In this document: positions 8,982 to 44,306 of the stretch, piece after piece
How positions within the stretch are numbered: position 1 is the stretch's first letter
Layout of the letters: every line of letters starts with the position of its first letter
From: Bradyrhizobiaceae bacterium
Lineage (GTDB): Bacteria; Pseudomonadota; Alphaproteobacteria; Rhizobiales; Xanthobacteraceae
DNA length: 64,000 bases
Assembly (NCBI GenBank): GCA_947481635.1
Contig: CANKHJ010000002.1
Coordinates: 1 to 64,000 of the forward strand
Direction of reading: 5' to 3'
Notes under the pieces: model-generated
Told to the model about the DNA's origin: nothing
Seen by the model: only the letters and a program-made list of their open reading frames with translations
Databases searched by the model: none
Program-made: the position numbers and the translations under genes

Positions 8982-9050
8982 GGCTTCTCCCTCGGGCGTT
9001 AGATGGGAGCCGAAAATGGCGGACACAAGACGGGCGCGTGTGCCCCAGAG

Positions 9051-9341
9051 CTACCCCGCGATCTTGTCCATCGCCTCGGCGAGTTTCACGTCCATCTCGG
9101 TCACCCCGCCGGCGTTGTGGGTCGAGAGCGTCACGTCGACGGTCTTGTAGACATTCGTCCATTCGGGATGATGGTCCATCTTCTCGGCCGCCAATGCGAC
9201 GCGTGTCATGAAGCCGAACGCCTCGCTGAAATCCTTGAAGGTGAATGTCTTCTCGATCGCGTCGCGGCCGGAAAACTCGCTCCAACCTTTAAGTTTGCTG
9301 AGTGCGGTCTTACGCGCATCGCCGGATAATTTTTGGGCCAT
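9051..9341 (-). CDS. phhB: 4a-hydroxytetrahydrobiopterin dehydratase
   Basis: A 96-aa pterin-4a-carbinolamine dehydratase. It recycles the pterin cofactor after aromatic hydroxylation and acts as a small cytoplasmic dimer or tetramer. The signature EKMDHHPEW (catalytic His-His) is followed by [17 protein letters not shown]. Two ATGs compete, at 9351-9353 and 9339-9341. The inner one is preferred because GGAG lies at the right distance and the protein then begins MAQKLSGD, as relatives do. No phenylalanine hydroxylase gene is nearby. Confidence 0.92.
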
Positions 9342-9413
9342 GTCATGCTCCATACCTGTTCAACCGCGAGGATAGCACGCCTGGTCCGCGGAGTTGGGCA
9401 ATGATGGGCGCCG

Positions 9414-10394
9414 TCAATCCACCTTCGCGCCGGACGCCTCGACCACCGGCTTCCACTTCGCGATCTCGGCCTTGATATAGGCCGCGAACTCCTCCGGCGT
9501 GTTGGTCTCGATATCAAGACCGGATGCAGCAAAGCGCGTCATGGTCTCGGGATTGGCGAGGATTTTACGGATCGCCGCATTGTATTTGTTGACGATCGCC
9601 ATCGGCGTGCCCTTCGGCGCGGCCACGCCGAACCACGCGGTGACGTCGAAATCCGGATAGCCCTGCTCCGCGATCGGCGCGACCTCCGGCAGCGAAGCGC
9701 CACGCGCTTTCGACGTCACGCCGAGCGCACGCAGCGCGCCGCTGCGGATGTGGTTGGTGGCTTCAGGAATGCTGACGAACATCACCTGGATCTGCCCGGC
9801 GATCAGATCGGGCATCGCCTGCGCCGCGCCGCGATACGGGATGTGGATCATCTTGGTGCCGGTCGCGAGGTTGAACAATTCGCCGCTGAGATGCTGCGAG
9901 GTGCCGACACCGGCCGAGCCGAACGACACCTTGTCGGGATTGGCCTTCGCATAGGTGACGAATTCCGCGATCGTCTTGGCCGGGATCGAGGGGTTGATCA
10001 CCATCACGTTCTTGAGCTGCGCCGCGATCGTGATCGGCACGAAATCATTCACCGCGTCGAACGGCATCTTCGCGCCATAGAGGCTGGTGTTGATGCCATG
10101 GGTCGAGACCGTGATCATGCCGAACACCGATCCGTCTGGCGCGCCGCGCGCGATCTCGGCCGCGCCGATATTGCCACCGGCGCCGGTGCGGTTCTCGACC
10201 ACGATCTGCGCGCCGATATGCTCGGGCAGGCCCAGCGCGATGGTGCGCGCCAGGAGGTCAAGCGACCCGCCGGCCGTGGTGAGCGTGATGAGCCTGACCG
10301 GCTGCCCGGCCGGTTGGGCCAACCCAACCGAGGCGGCCGCCAGAACCAGCACCGCCGCTGCCGCGCCGCGCACAATGATACCCTCCTTGGTCAT
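9414..10394 (-). CDS. TctC/Bug-family periplasmic solute-binding protein
   Basis: A 326-aa periplasmic binding protein of the tripartite tricarboxylate transporter family. It has a signal peptide (about 1-26) followed by the Bug blocks VVENRTGAGGNIGAAEIARGAPDG, VSFGSAGVGTSQHLSGELF and IPYRGAAQAMPDLIAGQ. Such proteins bind carboxylates or small organic acids. No TctA or TctB membrane gene is adjacent, so it is an orphan receptor. A strong GGGAGGT site precedes ATG 10392-10394, ruling out the longer upstream frame. Confidence 0.93.
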   Translation of the reverse strand: MTKEGIIVRGAAAAVLVLAAASVGLAQPAGQPVRLITLTTAGGSLDLLARTIALGLPEHIGAQIVVENRTGAGGNIGAAEIARGAPDGSVFGMITVSTHGINTSLYGAKMPFDAVNDFVPITIAAQLKNVMVINPSIPAKTIAEFVTYAKANPDKVSFGSAGVGTSQHLSGELFNLATGTKMIHIPYRGAAQAMPDLIAGQIQVMFVSIPEATNHIRSGALRALGVTSKARGASLPEVAPIAEQGYPDFDVTAWFGVAAPKGTPMAIVNKYNAAIRKILANPETMTRFAASGLDIETNTPEEFAAYIKAEIAKWKPVVEASGAKVD

Positions 10395-10636
10395 TTGACC
10401 TCCCTTTTGCCCTGCGAACGGACTTCGAGGCCAGTTTAAGCGGGGTTTCGCCGCGCGCCACAAGCTCCGCCGAGTTCCAGTTGGGGCAGGCACATTAACG
10501 ACGCCATGATTCCGCGGTAATCCGGGCCTTTCTGCTGCCGATTATCGTTGCGCCGCTCAGCGTCGTGACTATATTGCGCCGCAGCAAGCCGCGGGTCCTT
10601 TCGGACGCCGCGGCCGGCCTTTTTTGGAAACCTCGA

Positions 10637-12463
<1,827 letters not shown>

Positions 12464-28914: not shown

Positions 28915-30405
28915 TTAATTGCGGACTGTGAGCACATGCGAGCCTCCCGTGATTGCAGCCTTGGGCATGTCGAGAACATGGCCGACGAAGGGACGATCGG
29001 CGCCGAGTTGCAGGCGTGCCGTCGCCGGCGTGACTTCGGCCTTGCCCAGCAGGAAGAGATCCGCGTCGTTGGCCGGCAGTGTCGAGTCGAGCGGCGTCTT
29101 GATCGGGTCACCGGGGCGCGTCGGACGCACCAGCCGTGGCGTGACGATGATGGCGAGATCGGTCTCGCGCTTCTGATACGAGGCGCTGCGGAACAGCGCG
29201 CCGAGCACCGGCACATCACCGAGCCACGGCAATTGCTCCGTGGTCGTGGTGCCGATGTCCTGCAACAGGCCACCGATGACGAAGCCTTGGCCGTCACGCA
29301 GCTCGACCGTGGTGCTGGCGCGGCGCACGATCAGGGCGGGCACCGCAATGCCGTTGCCGATCGCGACCTGTCGGCTCGGATCGAACTGGCTGACTTCCGG
29401 TTCGATCTTGATGTTGATCAGCCCGTCGCGCAGCACCGTTGGCGTGAACGACAGGCCGACGCCGTAACGCTTATATTCGATGGCGATCTGGCCCTGCGTA
29501 CCGGCGACCGGGATCGGATATTCACCGCCCGCGAGGAAGCTCGCGGTATCGCCGGACAATGCCACGAGGTTCGGCTCGGCCAGGCTGCGCGCCATGCCGC
29601 GCTCTTCCAGCGCATTGACGATCACGTCGGTGGTGGCGCCGGCCGCAACCATGCGGCCGAGCAGCACGCCAAAGGGCGGCGCCAGCGTGCCGAGCACACC
29701 GGCCGCGGGCACGATCGCATTTCCGCTGGCGACCGGGAGCTGGTTGGCGGCAATGCGGTCGCCGACATTCGCGGTCACGTTGTTGGTCGACATATTCCAC
29801 TGCACGCCGAGCGCGCGGCCGGCGTTGCGCGACACCTCGATGAAGCGGACCTCCATCATCACCTGCTGCGGCGCCGAGACCAGCACCGAGTTGATGACGT
29901 CGGGCGCGAATTGGCGCGCCAGCGTGACCGCCCGGTCGAGAGTGACCGCGTCGGGCGAAGTGCCCGAGAGCAGCACACGGCCGTTGACCGACGAGACCTT
30001 GATGCCGGCATGCGCGATGCGCGCGATTTCGCTGGAGAGGCGCGACACGTCGTAGGTCACGTCGACGTCGAAAATGCCGACGAGCTTCTTGCCTTCGCCG
30101 TAGATGGTGACGCGCGTGGTGCCGACCTTTTTGCCCAGGATCGACAGCGAGCGATCGGTGAGCGGGTTGACATCCGCGACCTCGGGGTCGCCGACTGTGA
30201 TGTCGACAAAGGCGGTATCGGTTCGGACATCCTCGGTCTTGCCAACCGCCACGTTGAGCAGCACGGTGCGCTTGGCATTGCTCACCTGCAGCAGCCGCTG
30301 CGCCTGCGCATCGGCCGCGAGACCAGGCAGCAGCATCGATGCCGCAACCAGGCACGCAGCCACGAACCTGGCTGACAGCCCGCGATAATCCTTTGAATCA
30401 CTCAC
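28915..30405 (-). CDS. cpaC: Tad pilus outer-membrane secretin CpaC (RcpA)
   Basis: A 496-aa secretin forming the outer-membrane channel of the Flp pilus. It has a signal peptide (to about residue 35), an N-terminal pilus-assembly domain (RLLQVSNAKRTVLLNVAVGKTEDV), a BON-like domain (SSEIARIAHAGIKVSSVNGRVLLSGT) and the secretin core ending LPWLGDVPVLGALFRSASYQKRETDLAIIVTPRLV. The start is probably GTG at 30403-30405, because GGGGAG lies six bases before it; an in-frame ATG at 30421-30423 contains no site of its own upstream. Confidence 0.94.
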   Translation of the reverse strand: MSDSKDYRGLSARFVAACLVAASMLLPGLAADAQAQRLLQVSNAKRTVLLNVAVGKTEDVRTDTAFVDITVGDPEVADVNPLTDRSLSILGKKVGTTRVTIYGEGKKLVGIFDVDVTYDVSRLSSEIARIAHAGIKVSSVNGRVLLSGTSPDAVTLDRAVTLARQFAPDVINSVLVSAPQQVMMEVRFIEVSRNAGRALGVQWNMSTNNVTANVGDRIAANQLPVASGNAIVPAAGVLGTLAPPFGVLLGRMVAAGATTDVIVNALEERGMARSLAEPNLVALSGDTASFLAGGEYPIPVAGTQGQIAIEYKRYGVGLSFTPTVLRDGLINIKIEPEVSQFDPSRQVAIGNGIAVPALIVRRASTTVELRDGQGFVIGGLLQDIGTTTTEQLPWLGDVPVLGALFRSASYQKRETDLAIIVTPRLVRPTRPGDPIKTPLDSTLPANDADLFLLGKAEVTPATARLQLGADRPFVGHVLDMPKAAITGGSHVLTVRN

Positions 30406-30464
30406 TACACACTCCCCACCCATTGGACGCCCATTTCCCCAAACGACGTCCGTGATCTGCTTGA

Positions 30465-31334
30465 CTACTGAACCGATCGCCCCTGTCCCGAGGTTGCCAT
30501 CGCGTCCTTGCCTGCGCCTTCAACCGGCACGCTGTAGTCTTCTTTTTTCGCAGCGCGTGTCACACCGATGGTCGTGAACTTCGAATCCTGGGCGATCGGT
30601 GCGGCGCCCTGGAACAAATCGGTCGTCGTGATGCGGCGCGTCGTATCCGCATTAGCCTCGCCGGCCTTGCGCAGGATCAGCGACAGCGATCCGATCGTGG
30701 CGGCAAGCGCCAGCTTCTGCGCGTCGGCGGTTTCGACTTCGAATGTCGCGGAGCGGCCGACCATCGGCTTTTCCGACTTCTCGTCGGCGGTCTGGTCGAT
30801 CGCCAGCACGCGGACGTTCTGCAACAAGACATCGGTCGAGCCGACGCCCTTTTCGCCCTGGCGCGTCAGCGCGACATCGACGCGATCGCCCGGCAATACG
30901 AAGCCGGCGACGCCTTCGACGTCGTTGACGCGCACGGTGACGGCTTTCATACCGTCGCGCAGCAAGGCCGAGAGCGTGGCACGCTGGCCGGGGCCGGTGA
31001 TCTTGACCGGAAGGATCGGCTCGTTCTGCTCGATCGCGCCGAGCACGACGCGCTTCTCACCCGAGATGAGGTCGGAAATCTTACGGAACGCGCCGGGCGG
31101 CACCGCGTCTTCGGGCCACGCCACTTCGCGCAGCGACGTTGCCGAGAGCTCGCTGCCGAACCTCAAGGCGCGGCTCGCGACGACGACAGTTTGAGTTGCG
31201 AGCGGCTTCGCCTTGGTCTCGAGGCTGCGCATGCGCTCCTCGGCCTGCTGGTTCAGCCAGGACTGCGCCACGAACACCGCGAGCAAGCCGAACAAGACGG
31301 CAAACCCGATCATGACAATGGTGCTGGTACGCAC
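30465..31334 (-). CDS. cpaB: Flp pilus assembly protein CpaB (RcpC)
   Basis: A 289-aa periplasmic protein with one N-terminal membrane anchor (IVMIGFAVLFGLLAVFVAQSWL). It has an SAF domain (TQTVVVASRALRFGSELSATSLREVAWPEDAVP) and a RcpC-type domain (MKAVTVRVNDVEGVAGFVLPGDRVDVALT). It is the first gene of the operon. The start is GTG at 31332-31334, with GAGAGG upstream. CpaB binds peptidoglycan and links secretin and platform in relatives. Confidence 0.94.
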   Translation of the reverse strand: MRTSTIVMIGFAVLFGLLAVFVAQSWLNQQAEERMRSLETKAKPLATQTVVVASRALRFGSELSATSLREVAWPEDAVPPGAFRKISDLISGEKRVVLGAIEQNEPILPVKITGPGQRATLSALLRDGMKAVTVRVNDVEGVAGFVLPGDRVDVALTRQGEKGVGSTDVLLQNVRVLAIDQTADEKSEKPMVGRSATFEVETADAQKLALAATIGSLSLILRKAGEANADTTRRITTTDLFQGAAPIAQDSKFTTIGVTRAAKKEDYSVPVEGAGKDAMATSGQGRSVQ

Positions 31335-36509: not shown

Positions 36510-36639
36510 ATCCGTCACCCTGAGGCGCTCGGCACCTTCGCCGAGCCCCGAAGGGCCACGGTCCGACTGGGGCCGCAGCGTGCCCGCTCATCCTTCGAGG
36601 CTTCGCCGCAACCGCGGCTCGCACCTCAGGACGACGGAT
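36510..36639 (+). repeat. MITE-like palindromic repeat, copy 1
   Basis: A 130-bp element bounded by ATCCGTCACCCTGAGG and CCTCAGGACGACGGAT inverted ends, with internal CTCGGCACCTTCGCCGAG and CATCCTTCGAGGCTTCG arms. A second copy lies inverted at 58963-59105. The right end touches the stop codon of the DUF2304 gene. No open frame was found inside. Confidence 0.8.
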
Positions 36640-36983
36640 CAGGAAGGGCGCCCGCCAGCTTCATCGCCGGGTTTCGCATTTGCGATTGCGACCGCCCGGG
36701 CCAGCTTGGTGATGGTCTCCATCTGGGCGCGCAGCTTGAGATGCAGGTTGAGCAACAGGATCAGGCTGATGCCCACCCAGGTGTAAAGAATGAGATCGAC
36801 GCCGCGGCCAATGCCGATCCAGGCGGCCAGGGCGGTCGCGTGCGTCGGGAACCAAACGAAATACAGCCCGGCGAACGCCGCCAGCATGGCGAGCAGCCCG
36901 ACCGCCGGGGATAGCCGGTAGGCAGTCCAGGCATAGAGCAGGACGCCGGCGAGCAGAATGGAGAGCAGCGCTTGCGCGATCAT
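36639..36983 (-). CDS. DUF2304 membrane protein
   Basis: A 114-aa protein with three hydrophobic segments (about 2-20, 28-46, 62-82) and a soluble basic tail, matching DUF2304 in size and order (YRLSPAVGLLAMLAAFAGLYFVWFP). It overlaps the GT2 stop by 4 bp (ATGA). DUF2304 genes usually follow polyprenyl-phosphate glycosyltransferases. As this GT2 lacks its own membrane helices, the protein may serve as its anchor; that is inference. Confidence 0.85.
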   Translation of the reverse strand: MIAQALLSILLAGVLLYAWTAYRLSPAVGLLAMLAAFAGLYFVWFPTHATALAAWIGIGRGVDLILYTWVGISLILLLNLHLKLRAQMETITKLARAVAIANAKPGDEAGGRPS

Positions 36984-37678
36984 CGGTGCAGCCGCCTGGC
37001 GAACAGATCGAGCATGATGCCGAAGCTGTCGCTCAGCTTCTGGCCCTTGGCGAGCGAGTAATCCGAATATTCGATCGTGACCGGCGCCTCGACATAGCGC
37101 AATCCGCTGGCTGCGATCTGGTGCAGGATTTCCGAGGCATGCGCCATCCGGTTCTGACGCATCTGGATTGCCTGCGCGCCGCGGCGCGTCATCGCGCGCA
37201 GGCCGTTATGCGAATCCGAGACCTGAAGGCCGGTCGTGATGCGCGTGAACAACGTCGCGGCCTGAAGCAACAGGCGGCGGCTCGCCGGCATGTTGACCGC
37301 GGTCGCGCCGCGAAACCGGCTGCCGAGCGCGAAGTCGGCATTGTTGGCGGCGAGCGCGTCGAGCAGGCGCGGAATATCGGCGACGCGGTGCTGGCCATCG
37401 GCGTCGAAGGTCACGATCGCGGCGGCGCCGCGCAGTAGCGCATATTCGATTCCGGTTTGCAGGCCGGCGCCTTGACCCAGATTGATCGGATGCTGCACGA
37501 CCGCCGCACCGGCTTCGGCCGCGCGCGCCGGCGTACCGTCCTTCGAGCCGTCATCGACCACGACCACCGGATAGCCCGCGGCGCGCAAGCCGCCGACCAC
37601 GCTGGCGATCACCGAGGCCTCGTTATAGGCGGCCATCACCACCCAGACATTCGCAGGTGTTTGTTCGGACATCTGCAT
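36980..37678 (-). CDS. Family 2 glycosyltransferase, DPMS/GtrB-like
   Basis: A 232-aa GT-A fold transferase, likely using a nucleotide sugar and a polyprenyl phosphate. It has VMAAYNEASVIASVV, VVVDDGSKDGT and the metal-binding DADGQH, followed by ALGSRFRG and the HNGLRAMTRRGAQ block as in dolichol-phosphate mannosyltransferases. Unlike GtrB it ends without C-terminal membrane helices. ATG 37676-37678 shares one base with the stop of the preceding transporter gene (TGATG), while its own stop overlaps the DUF2304 start. Confidence 0.9.
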   Translation of the reverse strand: MQMSEQTPANVWVVMAAYNEASVIASVVGGLRAAGYPVVVVDDGSKDGTPARAAEAGAAVVQHPINLGQGAGLQTGIEYALLRGAAAIVTFDADGQHRVADIPRLLDALAANNADFALGSRFRGATAVNMPASRRLLLQAATLFTRITTGLQVSDSHNGLRAMTRRGAQAIQMRQNRMAHASEILHQIAASGLRYVEAPVTIEYSDYSLAKGQKLSDSFGIMLDLFARRLHR

Positions 37679-38046
37679 CACTCGGCCACCACGATCAGTC
37701 CGACCACAATGATGCCCAACCCGATCATCAGCCGCAGCGACAAGGCTTCGGCGAAGATCAAACCACCGAGCAGCGGCGTGATCGCGAAGGCGAGTGCGAC
37801 GAAGGGATAGGCGCGCGACAGCGGCGTGAAGCTGAGAATCCACACCCAGAACACCGACAACGCAAAATAGAGCGCCATCGCTGCGATGAAATAAGGGTTC
37901 AAAGCGAGCGAGAGCATGCGCTCGGTCAGTGACGCGCCGCCCGCGAGCCGCAGCGATGCCGCCTTGAACAGAAGCTGTCCGCCCGCCATGCCGATGGCAT
38001 AGGCACAGAGTAGCCCGATCTGCATCATGGAGAGACTGGCGCTCAT
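37678..38046 (-). CDS. Small EamA/SMR-like membrane protein, possible lipid-sugar flippase
   Basis: A 122-aa protein with four membrane helices (about 8-27, 50-70, 79-97, 104-121). It resembles ArnE/ArnF-type half transporters (LSFTPLSRAYPFVALAFAITPLLGGLIFAEALS). Such proteins flip undecaprenyl-phosphate sugars across the inner membrane. It is coupled on both sides: ATGA overlap with the methyltransferase and TGATG with GT2. This context supports, but does not prove, a flippase role. Confidence 0.82.
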   Translation of the reverse strand: MSASLSMMQIGLLCAYAIGMAGGQLLFKAASLRLAGGASLTERMLSLALNPYFIAAMALYFALSVFWVWILSFTPLSRAYPFVALAFAITPLLGGLIFAEALSLRLMIGLGIIVVGLIVVAE

Positions 38047-38915
38047 GACGGCTTCCGCATCACGACGCGCATCGCGTCAAACAGGTTGACCGGCAGGCCG
38101 ACATTGCTGCCACCGCTCTGCGCCGACGGTTTGAGGCCGAGCATGCGCTTGAGCTGGTAGGCGATCAGCGACACCGGCACGACCTTCCAGGGATGCGTGA
38201 AGGACACCAGCGTCATGCCGAGCCTGTCGGCGAGCCGGCTCATGCTTTCGCGCGTGAAGAACCAGAGATGCTGCGGCGGCGTCATCAGCCGCCAGCCGGA
38301 CCCGGAGAGTCGCGCATATTGCGAGCCGAAATCTCCGGTGGTCACGACGATGATGCCATCGGGATTGAGATGCCGCTCGAGCAGCGCTAGCGTTTCGCGC
38401 GGATCGGGCAGATGCTCGATCACGTCGAGCATCACGATCACATCGAAACTTCCGAGCTTTGCCATGGTGGGCCCATCAGCGACGCCGTCGATCACATTGA
38501 GGCCGTTGGCGCGCGCATGGGCGGCGGCCTCCTGCGCAATCTCGATGCCGGCGACCTCGAAATGGGATTTCGCCTCCTGCAGAAAGAAGCCGTAGGCGCA
38601 GCCGACATCGAGCAGCCGCCCACCGGTCTTATGCTCGCGCACGAACTCGACCACGCGAGCGAATTCCTTGCGCAGCACCGGCTCGGCGCCGCGATAATCG
38701 GCGTAGCCGTCATCATGCTGGCCGGAAAAATAATCCTCGGTGTAATAGGCGGCGGGATCGAAATTGGTCGTCTCGGTGCGGCCGATGCCGCATTCGGTGC
38801 AGCGCAGGATGTCGCAGCCATTCTTCGCATAGAGGAAGTCCTGCGCCGTGAGACGGCCGCACGCGGGGCAGGCCAGCATCGAAACGCGAGGATCCTGCTT
38901 GGGCAATGCGCTCAT
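38043..38915 (-). CDS. SAM-dependent methyltransferase with N-terminal zinc ribbon
   Basis: A 290-aa class I methyltransferase. A zinc ribbon is formed by CPAC (16-19) and CTEC (39-42), followed by the short FDPAAYYTEDYF linker. The Rossmann core begins RLLDVGCAYGFFLQEA (motif I), with VMLDVIEHLPDP later. This architecture is common in O- or C-methyltransferases of surface glycan clusters. It overlaps the next gene by 4 bp and starts 13 bp after the GT-C-like gene. Confidence 0.9.
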   Translation of the reverse strand: MSALPKQDPRVSMLACPACGRLTAQDFLYAKNGCDILRCTECGIGRTETTNFDPAAYYTEDYFSGQHDDGYADYRGAEPVLRKEFARVVEFVREHKTGGRLLDVGCAYGFFLQEAKSHFEVAGIEIAQEAAAHARANGLNVIDGVADGPTMAKLGSFDVIVMLDVIEHLPDPRETLALLERHLNPDGIIVVTTGDFGSQYARLSGSGWRLMTPPQHLWFFTRESMSRLADRLGMTLVSFTHPWKVVPVSLIAYQLKRMLGLKPSAQSGGSNVGLPVNLFDAMRVVMRKPS

Positions 38916-38928
38916 TGTGAATACACAG

Positions 38929-40356
38929 TCATGTTGGAATTGCAGCGCGACGGCGCCGCGACAGAAGTAACGCGGCCACGTGACAAATGATCCATGCCGA
39001 TCCGATCGAAATAGGGCCGATCAGCATCAGATTATAGCGCGGATAGTGATTGGCCGCTGCGGCATGGGCGCCGACGATGACCAGTGCCGGCCCGGCATAG
39101 AGCAGAAACACCGGCGCGCGCCGAATGGCCGAGACCAAAGCGGCGGCGAAGAGCGGCAGCAGCAACAGCCCCCAGACCTGAAACACCCACAGCCCGCACC
39201 AGGCCATTGGAATGGTGCTCATCAGATAGCCGGCGCCGTTGGTCGACACTTGCTCGCGGAACAGGCCGCCGATCAGGGGATCGAGCTTGCCGTGGGTCTT
39301 GACCAAGGCTTCCCGGTGCGCCCGGCCGACCTGGAAGAAGCTGCCCGGCCGGTCCCATTCAAACCGGCTCATCGCGCTCTCACCGAACAGGCCATTCACC
39401 AGAGCCGGGCCGACCGCCGGCAGGCAATACGGAAAGGCGAGCCCAAATTCTTTCCCGGTCATGGCATTGAAGGCAAAGCGTTCGATCAGGGTGGCGGAGC
39501 CATATTCCTCGGTCAGGGCGGCCTTTCCGATGATCGCCGCGTTGCGGGTCATCCAGGGCGACAGCACGACGATAAAAGCGGCGATGAACGCCAGTGCGGG
39601 AGCGCCGAGCGATTGCCGCGATGGGCCGAACCGGCGCCAGACGAGCAGCAGGATCAGCCAGACCGGCACGAGCACCATGAAGGACGGCCGCGCCAGCACC
39701 AGCACCCCCAACAGCAGGCCGGCAGCGAAGCTCCAGCGCCAGCTCCGAGCCTTCAGCGCCATCACATAGGCCAGCGCCGCGAAGCTGAATAACGCGATGC
39801 TGGTGCTCTCGGTCATGATAAAAGAGAACAGGTCGGCCTCGACCGCCAGTCCGGCCGTCGCCAACCCACCCGCCAAAAATGGGACCGCCATGCCGCCGAA
39901 GATCGCCTGGGCGGTCAGGACGATCGCGACCACCGCCAGCGCCAGCAGGCCGGCATGAAGGAGATGCATCGGCCGGGCGTAGAACTCGCAGCTTTCCATC
40001 GGACGCTGCTTCTGGTTGGCCTGGACGTTGCAGACCACCGCGCGCTCGAAGCGCGGATCGGCCTTCATCGCGAGATAGACCAGCGTGGGATAGACCGGGA
40101 CGAAGAACATTCCCGAGGGTGGCCGGGTCACGGTGCTGTCGACGGTGTCGAAGATGCCATTGCTGAACACGCCCCAGCGGGACAGGTCGTGGGCGATGGT
40201 CAGATAAAAGGAATGGTCGAAATCGAGCAGCCGTTTTTCGGGGCGGCTGAAGATGGCCGATGCCAGAATGGCAAAGACGGCGAGGCCGAACAGGACGCGC
40301 AATGCCACCCGCGCCGCCTTGCTGCGGCGCCCGTCGAACCCGCGCGCTTCCCCCAC
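38929..40356 (-). CDS. GT-C-like polytopic glycosyltransferase candidate
   Basis: A 475-aa membrane protein with about ten helices. A first helix (20-37) is followed by a periplasmic loop with an acidic pair, LLDFDHSF (D45, D47), in the position of the DxD/ExD motif of GT-C enzymes such as ArnT and PMTs. A later large loop contains GLFREQVSTNGAGYL. It probably transfers a sugar from a polyprenyl-phosphate donor; the acceptor is unknown. GTG at 40354-40356 is used, with GAGG upstream. It is the first gene of the five-gene glycan operon. Confidence 0.78.
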   Translation of the reverse strand: MGEARGFDGRRSKAARVALRVLFGLAVFAILASAIFSRPEKRLLDFDHSFYLTIAHDLSRWGVFSNGIFDTVDSTVTRPPSGMFFVPVYPTLVYLAMKADPRFERAVVCNVQANQKQRPMESCEFYARPMHLLHAGLLALAVVAIVLTAQAIFGGMAVPFLAGGLATAGLAVEADLFSFIMTESTSIALFSFAALAYVMALKARSWRWSFAAGLLLGVLVLARPSFMVLVPVWLILLLVWRRFGPSRQSLGAPALAFIAAFIVVLSPWMTRNAAIIGKAALTEEYGSATLIERFAFNAMTGKEFGLAFPYCLPAVGPALVNGLFGESAMSRFEWDRPGSFFQVGRAHREALVKTHGKLDPLIGGLFREQVSTNGAGYLMSTIPMAWCGLWVFQVWGLLLLPLFAAALVSAIRRAPVFLLYAGPALVIVGAHAAAANHYPRYNLMLIGPISIGSAWIICHVAALLLSRRRRAAIPT

Positions 40357-40534: not shown

Positions 40535-41320
40535 ATGGATCTCGGAATCAAGGGCCGCAAGGCGATCGTTTGCGCCTCGTCGCGCGGCCTCGGCAAGGCC
40601 AGCGCGATGGCGCTGGCCAAGGAAGGGGTTTCGGTCGTCATCAACGGCCTGACCCAGGAGCGGCTCGACAAGGCCGCCGCGGAGATCCGCTCCGCGACCG
40701 AGGTCGCCGTGACCGCGGTCCGGGCTGACATCAACACCGAGGAGGGGCGCAACGCGCTGATCGCGGCCTGCCCGGACGCCGACATCCTGATCAACAACAA
40801 TGCCGGCCCCGCTCCCGGCCAGCTCGACACCCAGGAGCTTTCGCACTGGATGAAAGCGATCGAGGCCAACATGCTGGCGCCGATCTTCATGATGAAGGCG
40901 CTGATCCCGGGGATGCGCCAGCGCAAGTTCGGGCGGATCATCAACATCACCTCGGCCATGGTGATGTCGCCCAAATTCTCCCGCATGGTCACCTCGACCG
41001 CGGCGCGGGCCGGCCTGACCGGCGCGGCGAAGTCGGTCGGCCGCGACGCCATCGTCGACAATGTCGTGATCAACAACATGCTGCCCGAGCGCATCGACAC
41101 CGACCGTCAGGTGTACATGGCGCAGCGCATGGTCAAAGAGGACGGCGTTAAGGATTACGAAGAGGCGCGTCGGTTAATCGTCGAGTCGCTTCCCGCCAAG
41201 CGATTCGGGACGCCGGAGGAATTCGGCGCCATGGTCGCATTTTTCTGCAGCGCCCATGTCGGCTTCACGACCGCAATGAATGTCCATCTCGACGGCGGGT
41301 CCTACGAAGGACTGCTCTGA
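40535..41320 (+). CDS. SDR-fold protein with degenerate catalytic site
   Basis: A 261-aa protein. The cofactor loop CASSRGLG (13-20) and NNNAGPAPG are present and the catalytic Ser is at 140 (NITS). The expected Tyr thirteen residues later is Thr153, and the Lys position is Ala157, within MVTSTAARAGLTG. Such Tyr/Lys-less SDRs occur as FabG-like paralogs, and some bind NAD(P) without classical reductase activity. It begins the plus-strand ligJ cluster, divergent from the glycan operon. ATG at 40535 follows GGGGG. Confidence 0.85.
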   Translation: MDLGIKGRKAIVCASSRGLGKASAMALAKEGVSVVINGLTQERLDKAAAEIRSATEVAVTAVRADINTEEGRNALIAACPDADILINNNAGPAPGQLDTQELSHWMKAIEANMLAPIFMMKALIPGMRQRKFGRIINITSAMVMSPKFSRMVTSTAARAGLTGAAKSVGRDAIVDNVVINNMLPERIDTDRQVYMAQRMVKEDGVKDYEEARRLIVESLPAKRFGTPEEFGAMVAFFCSAHVGFTTAMNVHLDGGSYEGLL

Positions 41321-41365
41321 GCGACCGCCAATCTCCATTCGCACGATCAACGATAAGGTGACCAC

Positions 41366-42400
41366 ATGATCATCGACTGCCATGGCCACTACACCACCGC
41401 GCCGAAGCAACTCGAATTATTCCGCAACGCTCAGCTTGCCGGCATCACCGACAAGCCGCGCCGGCCGGCCAGCAACGACCTCGGCATCACCGATGACCAG
41501 ATCCGCGAAAGCGTCGAGGGCGCGCAGCTCAAGCTGCAGCGCGAGCGCGGCACCGATGTCACGATCTTCTCGCCGCGGGCCGCCGGCATGGCGCACCATA
41601 TCGGCGACGCCAAGATCAGCGAGCAGTGGACGCGGGTCTGCAACGACCTCGTCCATCGCGTCATCCAGCTATTCCCGAAGAATTTCGTCGGCGTCGCGCA
41701 GCTGCCGCAGTCGCCCGGCGTGTCGCCGAAGAACTGCATTCCCGAGCTCGAGCGCTGCGTGAAAGAACTTGGTTTTGTCGGCTGCAACCTGAATCCGGAT
41801 CCCTCCGGCGGTTACTGGCAAGACCCGCCCTTCACCGACAAATACTGGTACCCGATCTACGAAAAGATGGTCGAGCTCGACGTGCCGGCGATGGTGCATG
41901 TCTCGGCGTCGTGCAATCCGGCGGCGCACACCACCGGCGGCCATTACATCAACGGCGACACCACGGCGTTCATGCAGTTCGTCCAGGGCGACCTGTTCAA
42001 GGACTTCCCGACGCTGAAATTCATCGTGCCGCATGGCGGCGGCGCCGTTCCGTATCACTGGGGCCGTTACCGTGGCCTGGCGCAGGACATGAAGAAGCCG
42101 CCGCTCACCGAGCACCTGATGAAGAACGTGTTCTTCGACACCTGTGTCTATCACCTGCCGGGCATCGAACTGCTCACTAAGGTGATCGACATCGACAACA
42201 TCCTGTTCGCGTCCGAAATGGTCGGCGCTGTGCGCGGCATCGATCCGAACACCGGCAATTATTTCGACGACACCAAGAAATATATCGACCAGCTCTCGAT
42301 CAGCGCGGCCGACAAGGCGAAGATCTTCGAGGGCAACGCCTACAAGGTCTATCCGCTGCTGAAGGGTGTGTTGCAGCAGCGCGGCTTGCTGAAGGCGTAA
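41366..42400 (+). CDS. ligJ: 4-oxalomesaconate hydratase, LigJ-type
   Basis: A 344-aa amidohydrolase-superfamily enzyme. In the protocatechuate 4,5-cleavage pathway LigJ hydrates 4-oxalomesaconate to 4-carboxy-4-hydroxy-2-oxoadipate. The protein starts with the LigJ hallmark MIIDCHGHYTTAP, whose H6 and H8 are metal ligands. The conserved H178 (MVHVSASC), H223 (PHGGGAVPYHWGR) and E284 (FASEM) follow, as do LPQSPGV and NLNPDPSGG. The strong N-terminal match makes LigJ much likelier than a generic decarboxylase. A palindromic repeat separates it from the aldolase gene. Confidence 0.88.
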   Translation: MIIDCHGHYTTAPKQLELFRNAQLAGITDKPRRPASNDLGITDDQIRESVEGAQLKLQRERGTDVTIFSPRAAGMAHHIGDAKISEQWTRVCNDLVHRVIQLFPKNFVGVAQLPQSPGVSPKNCIPELERCVKELGFVGCNLNPDPSGGYWQDPPFTDKYWYPIYEKMVELDVPAMVHVSASCNPAAHTTGGHYINGDTTAFMQFVQGDLFKDFPTLKFIVPHGGGAVPYHWGRYRGLAQDMKKPPLTEHLMKNVFFDTCVYHLPGIELLTKVIDIDNILFASEMVGAVRGIDPNTGNYFDDTKKYIDQLSISAADKAKIFEGNAYKVYPLLKGVLQQRGLLKA

Positions 42401-42408
42401 CAAGTCGG

Positions 42409-42513
42409 CGTCATTCCGGGGCGGCCGCAAGGCCGAACCCGGAATCCAGACGCGGATACAGGAATACGTGTCTCTGGATTCCGGGTTCGCGCTGCGCGCG
42501 CCCCGGAATGACG
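42409..42513. repeat. Nested palindromic repeat (REP-like) between ligJ and aldolase
   Basis: The outer inverted repeat CGTCATTCCGGGGCG / CGCCCCGGAATGACG (15 bp, perfect) encloses an inner perfect 16-bp repeat, GAACCCGGAATCCAGA / TCTGGATTCCGGGTTC. Total length is 105 bp with no open frame. It is of the type scattered between genes in Bradyrhizobium relatives. Confidence 0.85.
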
Positions 42514-42549
42514 GAGAGAGGTTCGGAATCACATTCAGGAGGAAATGAC

Positions 42550-43416
42550 ATGGCGGAGCTTCCGCGGCTGAACGGGGTCATTGCGGCATTGGAGAGCGGG
42601 AAACACGCCTTCACGGCGTTCTGCCCGGTCGAGACCCAGTCGGCGATCACGTTCGGAACCAGCAAGTATGACGGCATCGTGTTCGAGGGCGAGCATCAGC
42701 CGTGGGATGCGCGGCTGTTGCGCGATGCGTTCCAGTATCTGCTCAATCGCAAGGTAATCCTGGACCGCGGCAACCCGTCTCCTGCGGTGACGCCGCTGGT
42801 ACGGGTGCCGGTGAACGGCGCCGAGAAAAGCCAGTGGCTCGCCAAGCAGGCGCTCGACATCGGCGCGTTCGGCATCGTGTGGCCGCATATCGCGACGGTG
42901 GAAGAAGCCTATAACGCGGTCTCCGCCTGCCGCTATCCGCGCATGAAGAACAAGTCGTTCTACGAGCCGCAGGGCATCCGCGGCGACGGCCCGCATAACG
43001 CGGTGCGCTACTGGGGCATCTCGCAGCAGGAATATTACGACCGCGCCGACGTGTGGCCGCTCAATCCGAAGGGCGAGATCTTCTGCATCATCCAGATCGA
43101 AGACACCGTCGGCATCAAGAACCTCGACGACATGCTCAAGAACGTGCCGGGCATCGGCGCAGTGCTGATCGGCGAAGGCGATCTCTCGCAGGAGCTCGGC
43201 TATCCGCGCCAGTATGAGCATCCGGTGGTGCTGGAGCACGTCGCCGAGATCGTCGCGACCTGCAAGAAGAACAACGTCGTGGTCGCGCATCCGCATGTCG
43301 AGGCCGGCAATGCCGAGCGTCTGATGAACGAAGGCTTCCGCTTCCTGATGTGCGCGCCGACCTCCGGCTCCGGCAATCTCGACAAGGCGAAGGCGGTCGC
43401 CGCGGGAAAGAAGTGA
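42550..43416 (+). CDS. HpcH/HpaI-family aldolase
   Basis: A 288-aa class II, metal-dependent pyruvate-type aldolase. Family residues are recognisable: FEGEHQPWD (acid/His), LVRVPVNGAEKSQWLAKQALDIGAFGIVWPHI (Arg plus glycine turn), IQIEDTVGIKN (metal Glu) and GEGDLSQELG (metal Asp). A full AGGAGGA site precedes ATG 42550, excluding the longer frame. Next to ligJ, it may cleave 4-carboxy-4-hydroxy-2-oxoadipate to pyruvate and oxaloacetate in place of the unrelated LigK; that is inference. Its stop shares a base with the next start (TGATG). Confidence 0.87.
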   Translation: MAELPRLNGVIAALESGKHAFTAFCPVETQSAITFGTSKYDGIVFEGEHQPWDARLLRDAFQYLLNRKVILDRGNPSPAVTPLVRVPVNGAEKSQWLAKQALDIGAFGIVWPHIATVEEAYNAVSACRYPRMKNKSFYEPQGIRGDGPHNAVRYWGISQQEYYDRADVWPLNPKGEIFCIIQIEDTVGIKNLDDMLKNVPGIGAVLIGEGDLSQELGYPRQYEHPVVLEHVAEIVATCKKNNVVVAHPHVEAGNAERLMNEGFRFLMCAPTSGSGNLDKAKAVAAGKK

Positions 43417-44306
43417 TGCCGAGCTATCCGAGCAGCGGGCCGGTCACCCTCAAGGCCAACCTGGGCGACTATCCCGCCTACAAGGCGCTGAAGGACGGCT
43501 CGTTCAAGTCGGACCTGGTGTCGTTTCAGTTCGCCGACCTCAAGACGCCGGTCGACGGCTTCAAGCCGATGGTGCGCGACCGCGCCTTCGACTGCGGCGA
43601 GATCGCGATCGTCACGTTCCTGCAGGCCAAGACCTACGGCAAGCCGATCGCGCTGCTGCCGGCGACGCTGGTCGGACGCTTCCAGCAGAACTGCGCCTGC
43701 TACAACGCAGACCGCGGCGAGGTGAAGCCGTCCGATCTCAACGGCAAGCGCGTCGGTGTCGGCTCCTACACCACGACGACCGGCGTGTGGGTGCGCGGCG
43801 TGCTGCAGCATGACTACGGCGTCGATCCGGCCAAGGTGACCTGGGTCGTGACCGGCGACGCGCATCTCGCCGAGTTCAAAGACCCGCCGAACGTCGAGAA
43901 AACCACCAAGAAGCTCGACCAGATGCTGCTCGACGGCGAGATCGATGCCTTCGTGACACCGGTGCTGCCGCAGGATCCGCGCGTGAAGCCGCTGATTCCC
44001 GACGCGCAGGCCGCCGGCCTCGCCTGGGGCCAGAAGCACAACAGCGTGCAGATCAACCACATGTTCGCGGTCGATACCGGCCTGCTGGCGCAGCGGCCGG
44101 ACGTGGTGCGCGAGCTGTATCGGCTGCTGTCGGAAGCCCGGAGCGCCGGCGGCCCGGCGACCAGCCCGGTCGACATGATGCCGTATGGCGCCGCGGTCCG
44201 GCCCGGCGTGACGCTGATGAACCAATATGCCGAGGAACAGCGGATCATTCCAAAGCGGTTCTCAGTTGACGAACTGCTGGCGGAGACCGCGAAGGCGATT
44301 GGGTAA
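43416..44306 (+). CDS. 4,5-dihydroxyphthalate decarboxylase-like protein
   Basis: A 296-aa protein with the periplasmic-binding fold but no signal peptide, so it is cytoplasmic. The blocks KRVGVGSYTTTTGVWVRGVLQHDYGV and DQMLLDGEIDAFVTP correspond to those of 4,5-dihydroxyphthalate decarboxylases, which release CO2 to give protocatechuate. INHMFAVDTGLLAQRPDVVRELYRL matches their C-terminus. Many such proteins are labelled ABC-transporter binding proteins. Its ATG overlaps the aldolase stop (TGATG), so the two are coupled. The substrate is inferred only. Confidence 0.75.
   Translation: MPSYPSSGPVTLKANLGDYPAYKALKDGSFKSDLVSFQFADLKTPVDGFKPMVRDRAFDCGEIAIVTFLQAKTYGKPIALLPATLVGRFQQNCACYNADRGEVKPSDLNGKRVGVGSYTTTTGVWVRGVLQHDYGVDPAKVTWVVTGDAHLAEFKDPPNVEKTTKKLDQMLLDGEIDAFVTPVLPQDPRVKPLIPDAQAAGLAWGQKHNSVQINHMFAVDTGLLAQRPDVVRELYRLLSEARSAGGPATSPVDMMPYGAAVRPGVTLMNQYAEEQRIIPKRFSVDELLAETAKAIG

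Follow-up and report, generated by a model that had tools for sequence, protein, structure and literature searches.

A recurring gene cassette that probably supplies a lipid-linked methyl-sugar to an exchangeable GT-C transferase

Five minus-strand genes in a 64,000-nucleotide window from a Bradyrhizobiaceae bacterium, the window being the whole stretch of DNA analysed here, probably combine a constant methyl-sugar donor cassette with an exchangeable GT-C transferase. The recurring unit comprises genes for a methyltransferase (MT), an SMR-like membrane protein, a GT2 glycosyltransferase and a DUF2304 protein together with a GT-C that differs between loci, the SMR-like gene being missing or decayed in some genomes. 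In the mechanism we propose, the GT2, docked via DUF2304, would load one sugar onto polyprenyl phosphate at the inner membrane face, the zinc-ribbon MT would methylate this sugar before it leaves the cytoplasm, the SMR-like protein would flip the lipid-linked sugar, and the GT-C would hand it to an acceptor in the periplasm or on the cell surface, be it a glycan, a lipid or a protein. Each of these reactions is our inference, as are the sugar, its acceptor and the placing of methylation before flipping; we regard the mechanism as a whole as fairly likely. Among the features found, none points to a particular acceptor.

Gene layout and the GT2-DUF2304 pair

All five open reading frames are present at 36639-40356, where the initial annotation had placed them, and they overlap as it described: the MT and SMR-like genes by 4 bp, the SMR-like and GT2 genes by 1-4 bp, according to which start codon is used, and the GT2 and DUF2304 genes by 4 bp, with 13 bp separating the GT-C stop from the MT start. 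A promoter scan returned no promoters and Rfam no matches, and ten terminator-like matches all lay within genes. The further claim that these genes form a lipid-linked sugar transfer module is supported by the analyses below.

Table 1. Predicted products of the five-gene locus in the window.
Product	Position	Strand	Features
GT-C glycosyltransferase, type a	38929..40356	-	475 aa
SAM-dependent methyltransferase (MT), N-terminal zinc ribbon	38043..38915	-	290 aa
SMR/EamA-like small membrane protein, putative lipid-linked sugar flippase	37678..38046	-	122 aa
GT2 polyprenyl-phosphate sugar synthase, predicted	36980..37681	-	Glycos_transf_2, DADGQ (DxDxQ) motif
DUF2304 small membrane protein, GacJ/WpsB-type GT2 partner	36639..36983	-	PF10066; 114 aa

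The GT2 protein scored 76.1 bits against Glycos_transf_2 (cut-off 23.3), and its best NCBIfam match was PpgS (NF058614) at 228.1 bits, below the equivalog cut-off of 370. A profile search of the PDB returned dolichol monophosphate mannose synthase 5mlz as the best match (1.5e-15), in agreement with the initial DPMS-like assignment, and also matched the aminoarabinose-type transferase ArnC and Synechocystis sll0501. The DADGQ motif was invariant in five aligned sequences, and DxDxQ is named as a possible hallmark of polyprenyl-phosphate glycosyltransferases in PMC10821137. By sequence, the protein is thus a predicted GT2-type polyprenyl-phosphate sugar synthase. Its hydropathy profile contained one segment (residues 23-42) and none near the C-terminus, and the adjoining DUF2304 protein scored 61.4 bits against PF10066 (cut-off 25.5), the two genes overlapping by 4 bp in all 27 rows checked. 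A DUF2304 gene next to a GT2 lacking C-terminal membrane helices is the arrangement of GacI/GacJ and WpsA/WpsB, in which, according to the passages cited, the small DUF2304-type membrane protein binds and activates the helix-less GT2 (PMC10821137, PMC8327497). The pair is therefore of a known type, and the idea that DUF2304 supplies the missing GT2 anchor, although correct for relatives, was already established there and is not new.

The donor is probably made from a common UDP-sugar; UDP-HexNAc is our guess, based on PpgS and GacI. As published, WpsA/B produce GlcNAc-P-C55 that is later elongated (PMC10821137), and the module could likewise start an oligosaccharide that further cytoplasmic glycosyltransferases extend on the lipid before flipping. 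We consider this very unlikely, since no extra glycosyltransferase recurs beside the module in at least 3 of the 28 stretches compared.

The methyltransferase and the putative flippase

The MT scored 90.7 bits against Pfam Methyltransf_23 (cut-off 27) and yielded a predicted model with a pLDDT of 90. The zinc ribbon recognized in the initial annotation was borne out by its cysteines C16, C19, C39 and C42: C39 and C42, together with H168 and H216, were present in 30/30 aligned MTs, and C16 and C19 in 27 of the 30, the remaining three rows having no residue there. The nearest structures to the model, zinc domain included, were the sugar C-methyltransferases MtmC, TcaB9 and KijD1 (Z 23.1-25.8; next structure 18.7), which superposed over 218-230 residues and share with the predicted fold both a zinc-binding N-terminal domain and a Rossmann MT domain. 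In TcaB9/KijD1-type sugar C-3'-methyltransferases, a Glu-His pair is catalytic. The MT, aligned with KijD1, carries Gln in place of this Glu (Gln/Ser/His/Thr in 26/2/1/1 of the 30 sequences beside the conserved His) and lacks the C-terminal third domain, the matches stopping near residue 269 of chains of about 400-420. Because both the Glu and the third domain are missing, a true C-methyltransferase was rejected as first choice; nor does a keto-sugar gene recur near the module. Methylation of the sugar, as initially suggested, is plausible, and the chemistry would most likely be O- or N-methylation through the conserved His.

The SMR-like protein fell under the Pfam cut-offs for TMEM234 (29.7 versus 30.1) and EamA (24.7 versus 28.2), and its profile matched nothing in the PDB. 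Its best NCBIfam matches, at 29.9 and 29.1 bits, were ArnE and ArnF, subunits of a lipid-sugar flippase, though far under the equivalog cut-offs of 92 and 99; SMR drug exporters also gave weak, sub-threshold matches. An ordinary small multidrug exporter, with GtrA or some other protein flipping the donor, would fit the latter matches, the two GtrA genes of the genome and one locus (L109) in which GtrA lies near the GT2-DUF2304 pair and no SMR match was found. Likewise, four loci (L042, L043, L046 and L050) carry a decayed SMR-like gene, the gaps of L041, L044 and L039 show no remnant of it, and it was not detected in L110 and L111; the gene is therefore at times dispensable or replaced. We nevertheless hold the exporter reading to be highly improbable, given the ArnE/ArnF matches, the overlap of the gene with both neighbours in the window and a full-length open copy in 17/23 loci. 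The protein, encoded by the sole copy detected in the genome, is by its weak SMR/EamA-like matches a putative lipid-linked sugar flippase.

Linkage across genomes and exchange of the GT-C transferase

Among 101 relatives, the MT occurred in five genomes and DUF2304 above cut-off in the same five, which also held the five best of seven GT2 matches; the three genes are clustered in these genomes, a co-occurrence beyond chance. A class-wide MT search of 385 genomes matched only the window's genome and one other (G537). After excluding 32 of 59 MT loci with MT identity under 40%, the MT adjoined a GT2-DUF2304 pair in 23 of the 27 close-MT loci; in L039 the contig ends within the GT2 gene, and L057, L058 and L059 had no pair in the stretch examined. 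The 32 distant loci, several on short contigs, contained no DUF2304 match, many had a generic GT2 match, and two had an SMR-like neighbour (L073, Hyphomonadaceae; L078, Lysobacter). A search led by DUF2304 instead of the MT found the MT in 9 of 11 GT2-DUF2304 loci, the two others (G216 and G117) having none within the stretch read. Of 14 DUF2304 matches, eight exceeded the cut-off. Among these eight, G214 (L113) had none of the other parts nearby, and neither did G071 (L114), the one examined of the six lower-scoring matches. No additional gene family recurred in more than 5 of the 27 close-MT loci plus the window, a comparison that did not extend to L110-L112, and a common sugar nucleotide is therefore favoured as the substrate.

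The module could instead be plain multi-component glycosylation with the MT as a mere neighbour acting on the glycan acceptor or another metabolite. Besides the two GT2-DUF2304 loci without an MT and the three close MT homologues without the pair, this would accommodate the sugar-biosynthesis genes that adjoin the MT in L058, L073 and L078 (by eye, five MT loci inspected). It also fits G066 (L012), in which SMR-like (35%) and GT2-like (25%) matches come after a distant GT-C of type a (28%), with neither MT nor DUF2304, indicating that such sets occur without methylation. We judge it unlikely, because the linkage in 9/11 loci is retained even where the other genes are inverted and reshuffled, and no other outside gene recurs so widely.

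The product of the first gene scored 19.9 bits against Pfam PMT_2, under the cut-off of 26.1, and was assigned to the GT-C class because its predicted fold (pLDDT 89) matches ArnT: in a fold search, ArnT 5f15 was the top match (Z 24.0, 316 residues aligned), and the model resembled ArnT, OST and PMT folds at Z of about 20-24. Searches of the PDB gave one chance match for the single sequence (E 2.2) and none for the profile. Loop 1 carries a DFD motif, of which D47 is kept in 14/14 and D45 in 12/14 aligned sequences; an RYN motif lies close to the C-terminus, and C109 and C123 are conserved. The GT-C-like assignment of the initial annotation and, for D47, its loop-1 acid are thereby upheld; its association of genes holds as well. 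Poor conservation of gene order had been named there as refuting, and by that measure the strict five-gene operon fails: the order of the window recurs in 0 of the 11 other type-a loci, and we rejected this operon as the conserved unit.

In those 11 loci, the GT-C gene is placed convergently, downstream of the cassette, whereas in eight further loci a DUF2142 protein (type b) replaces it; for types c, d and e the assignment draws on position and hydropathy only. No GT-C candidate was seen by eye among the listed genes of one locus (G216, L108). Distant GT-C matches also occurred in five further genomes (G020, G066, G071, G084 and G093), with none of the other parts adjoining in G084, G093 and G071. 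A contig scan with the window GT-C alone gave 36 pattern matches and no confirmed relatives; the relatives (about 50%) found otherwise escaped it owing to the excessive stringency of its six exact peptide patterns. What sequence or predicted folds show here is the linkage, the GT-C exchange, the 4-bp overlaps, the catalytic motifs and the family assignments.

Relation to known systems and biological meaning

In aminoarabinose modification of lipid A, ArnC, ArnD, ArnE/F and ArnT charge a lipid, modify the lipid-linked sugar, flip it by an SMR-like step and transfer it by a GT-C. The module would follow the same logic, and ArnT is the top fold match of its GT-C; ArnD, in contrast, modifies by deformylation rather than methylation, and the Arn flippase has two subunits, whose sequence cut-offs the module does not reach.

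The GacI-GacJ-GacK-GacL system of group A Streptococcus and WpsA/WpsB of Lactococcus likewise combine a soluble GT2 and a DUF2304-type protein, producing a polyprenyl-phosphate sugar, with a flippase and a GT-C (PMC10821137, PMC8035078, PMC8327497). In the passages cited, their flippase is Wzx-type rather than SMR-like, the acceptor is rhamnan and no methyltransferase is described; the main text of the review PMC8035078 contains no word starting with 'methyl'. In Mycobacterium tuberculosis, PpgS (Rv3631), Rv3632 and Rv3779 provide a GT2, a small integral membrane partner and a GT-C-type transferase that uses polyprenyl-P-GalNAc/GalN, again with no methyltransferase in the passages cited (PMC3485146, PMC5964476). 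Judging by locus number, Rv3779 is encoded away from PpgS, whereas the window GT-C adjoins the cassette.

Among named genomes, the module is present in Rhodoplanes, Pseudolabrys, Bradyrhizobium and others, and a literature search of open-access papers found no description of it there; the parts consulted of the literature on Bradyrhizobium lipid A and O-methylation held nothing attributable to it. Two aspects look new: the MT, as an element of an otherwise known type of kit, and the exchange of the last enzyme from one species to another.

Periplasmic sugar decoration alters bacterial encounters with phages, plants, antibodies and stress. As the set has five genes and no further widely recurrent partner, it is small enough to be rebuilt in a laboratory strain, where it could probe whether methylation of lipid-linked sugars precedes flipping and whether DUF2304 partners function in proteobacteria as in streptococci. 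It could also reveal how GT-C enzymes select their acceptor under a constant donor. More tentatively, we speculate that the cassette is portable, methylating a carrier-bound sugar before flipping and supplying the same methyl-sugar to several unrelated GT-Cs with species-specific targets; if so, one shared tag would mark surface molecules that differ from species to species.

The five-gene module of the window and its GT-C

The module is transcribed in the order of a 475-aa membrane protein (GT-C), a 290-aa zinc-ribbon methyltransferase (MT), a 122-aa SMR/EamA-like small membrane protein (SMR), a GT2 of at most 233 aa and a 114-aa DUF2304 protein. A 13-bp gap separates the GT-C and MT genes, and the 1-4 bp overlaps described for the last four genes in the initial annotation were confirmed. 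Clear Pfam families were Methyltransf_23 (MT), Glycos_transf_2 (GT2) and DUF2304; the 475-aa protein matched PMT_2 below threshold (19.9 versus a cut-off of 26.1 bits), as the 122-aa protein did TMEM234 (29.7 versus 30.1) and EamA (24.7 versus 28.2 bits). The best NCBIfam match of the GT2 was PpgS (228 bits, below the cut-off of 370), and those of the 122-aa protein were ArnE/ArnF (about 30 bits, below the cut-offs of 92 and 99).

The predicted GT-C model, built from a 14-sequence alignment, had a mean pLDDT of 89. Foldseek placed oligosaccharyltransferases on top, with ArnT, DPY19 and Emb lower, and a second structural aligner returned ArnT with undecaprenyl phosphate as the best match (5f15; Z 24.0, r.m.s.d. 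3.7 over 316 residues), with OST, AglB and PMT just under it. D47 of the loop-1 DFD motif, E183 and RYN (440-442) were present in all 14 sequences and D45 in 12. Taken together, the fold matches (ArnT, OST, PMT) and the conserved residues show that the protein had rightly been read as a GT-C-like transferase.

Elsewhere in the window lie two genes that, by eye, we take to be the pilus secretin (CpaC-like) and CpaB of an Flp pilus locus, and, 178 bp from the opposite-strand GT-C gene, the start of a run encoding an SDR, an amidohydrolase, an HpcH/HpaI-like aldolase and a fourth enzyme (names by eye), by eye an aromatic-compound breakdown set.

Positions of the module, SMR remnants and neighbouring or related gene sets
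Feature	Locus	Positions	Strand	Basis
Five-gene module	window	36639-40356	minus	ORFs read in the window
Flp pilus genes	window	28915-31334	minus	by eye
Breakdown set	window	40535-44306	plus	by eye
SMR remnant	L042	8826-9180		
SMR remnant	L043	8826-9174		
SMR remnant	L046	8826-9087		
SMR remnant	L050	816-1173		
GT2-DUF2304 without MT	L109	5667-8737		
Distant GT-C set	L012 (G066)	8994-11279		
MT-SMR-GT2-DUF2304	L056	7974-10345		
Distant MT and SMR-like gene	L073	8082-9217		
Distant MT and SMR-like gene	L078	7998-9136		

Linkage of MT, GT2 and DUF2304

The five parts of the module belong together. Among 101 relatives, GT2 was found in 7 genomes (E up to 1e-20), MT in 5 (E up to 1e-40) and 5 genomes had a DUF2304 match over the cut-off; MT and DUF2304 occurred in the same five genomes, which also held the five best GT2 matches. 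Were placements independent, the chance of five shared genomes of 101 would be 1.3e-8, a rough guide only that ignores kinship. The parts were clustered in all five, in varying orientation.

The MT alignment, run as a query against named genomes, returned 59 loci, 27 of them with an MT identity of 44% or more, and GT2 and DUF2304 adjoined MT in 23 of these 27; one of the others ends within GT2 (L039), and L057, L058 and L059 lack the GT2-DUF2304 pair. Four of the 23 (L040, L045, L048 and L053, with 100% identical GT-C) were judged to repeat the relatives' loci, and L055 probably repeats a locus of genome G193. Because MT had served as bait, DUF2304 was used as a second query in 397 genomes sampled across the order, in which 8 matches passed the cut-off and 7 of the 8 sat by GT2, with MT present at five of those seven, the window's own included. 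Counting the relatives and the order-wide sample together, GT2 and DUF2304 are paired at 11 distinct loci, and MT is present at nine of these. In 27/27 rows checked (the window, the 23 loci, L110, L111 and L112), the end of GT2 overlapped the start of DUF2304 by 4 bp.

The MT-SMR-GT2-DUF2304 order also occurs in the betaproteobacterium Pandoraea horticolens (L056), where it may reflect horizontal transfer. In a Hyphomonadaceae locus (L073) and in Lysobacter (L078), distant MTs (32-33% identity) directly precede an SMR-like gene, among what are by eye sugar biosynthesis genes.

Fold and likely chemistry of the methyltransferase

In PDB profile searches, a 5-MT profile gave as its two best matches the sugar methyltransferases CalS10 and TcaB9, amid uncharacterised methyltransferases and UbiG, and 30 MTs gave mixed top matches including uncharacterised methyltransferases, KijD1, UbiG, CalS10 and TcaB9. 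The predicted model (pLDDT 90) superposed, from the zinc ribbon onward, on MtmC, TcaB9 and KijD1 at Z 23.1-25.8, with the next structure at 18.7. Ribbon cysteines 39 and 42, together with His168 and His216, were present in 30/30 alignment rows, and cysteines 16 and 19 in 27, the remaining three rows having no residue there. In contrast to KijD1, in which Glu precedes the second His, this family has Gln there in 26/30 rows, and the window's MT lacks the third domain of the sugar C-methyltransferases. We infer that MT is a sugar O- or N-methyltransferase akin to the C-methyltransferases.

Probable exchange of the GT-C, decay of the SMR gene and known systems

Across the 23 loci, the GT-C was a relative of the window's (type a) in 11 and a DUF2142 protein (type b) in 8, of which one was cut by a contig end and one split between two frames; three type-b proteins tested scored 131-157 bits against Pfam DUF2142. 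L042 ends at a contig end, and L041, L055, L056 and L110-L112 carried large multi-helix proteins for which Pfam gave no clear match, types c, d and e being named by position, hydropathy and eye only. In the available text of PMC12599335, a transferase or polymerase role is proposed for DUF2142 proteins of cell-wall loci in Pseudolactococcus and lactococci. On a tree of joined MT-GT2-DUF2304 proteins (27 rows), with a weakly supported backbone and with L054 and L055 joining as long branches, the five GT-C labels (L042 left out) needed 7 changes against a minimum of four, and the starred branches by themselves require no fewer than 3 type-b changes and 1 type-a change. Some exchange of the GT-C is therefore likely, its number of changes being unsure. 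The GT-C gene was downstream and convergent in 11/11 other type-a loci and upstream on the same strand only in the window; conservation of the five-gene order was thus not borne out, the type-a order being peculiar to the window's genome among the loci seen.

In 17 of the 23 loci the SMR-like gene had an uninterrupted, full-length reading frame, standing after DUF2304 in L054. Four loci, three from Bradyrhizobium and one related, retained between MT and GT2 a remnant with frameshifts and stops; MT, GT2 and DUF2304 were still open there. No SMR-like gene was seen in the gap read at L041, L044 and L039, and no match in L110 or L111. Since lactococcal CflA serves several systems, as stated in the portion of PMC8035078 available, replacement by another flippase where SMR is lost is plausible by analogy. 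In the window's genome this kind of SMR occurs once, and there are two GtrA genes. Separately, a related GT2-DUF2304 locus without MT (L109) has a GtrA gene and an unassigned 479-aa membrane protein beside it. In G066 (L012), SMR-like (35%) and GT2-like (25%) matches come after a distant type-a GT-C (28%), all on one strand, and neither MT nor DUF2304 was matched beside this set.

According to the accessible portions of published accounts, GacI/GacJ and WpsA/WpsB are pairs of a GT2 and a small membrane protein that make GlcNAc-phosphate-undecaprenol, the small partner complexing with the GT2, or being predicted to do so, and raising GT2 activity (PMC10821137); the DUF2304 family is cited as typical for GacJ-like proteins (PMC8327497), PpgS, Rv3632 and Rv3779 are assigned a like role for galactosamine in mycobacteria (PMC3485146, PMC5964476), and further three-component systems are described (PMC11127046). 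Most of the mechanism in the initial annotation, a module making, flipping and transferring a single sugar with DUF2304 as possible GT2 anchor, is established for relatives of the GacI/GacJ type. In the accessible portions of one open-access library, such modules were not described with a methyltransferase as a regular component, a result too narrow in scope to prove absence. Three features stand out: the zinc-ribbon methyltransferase, which recurs; the GT-C, which is exchangeable; and the SMR, which is dispensable.
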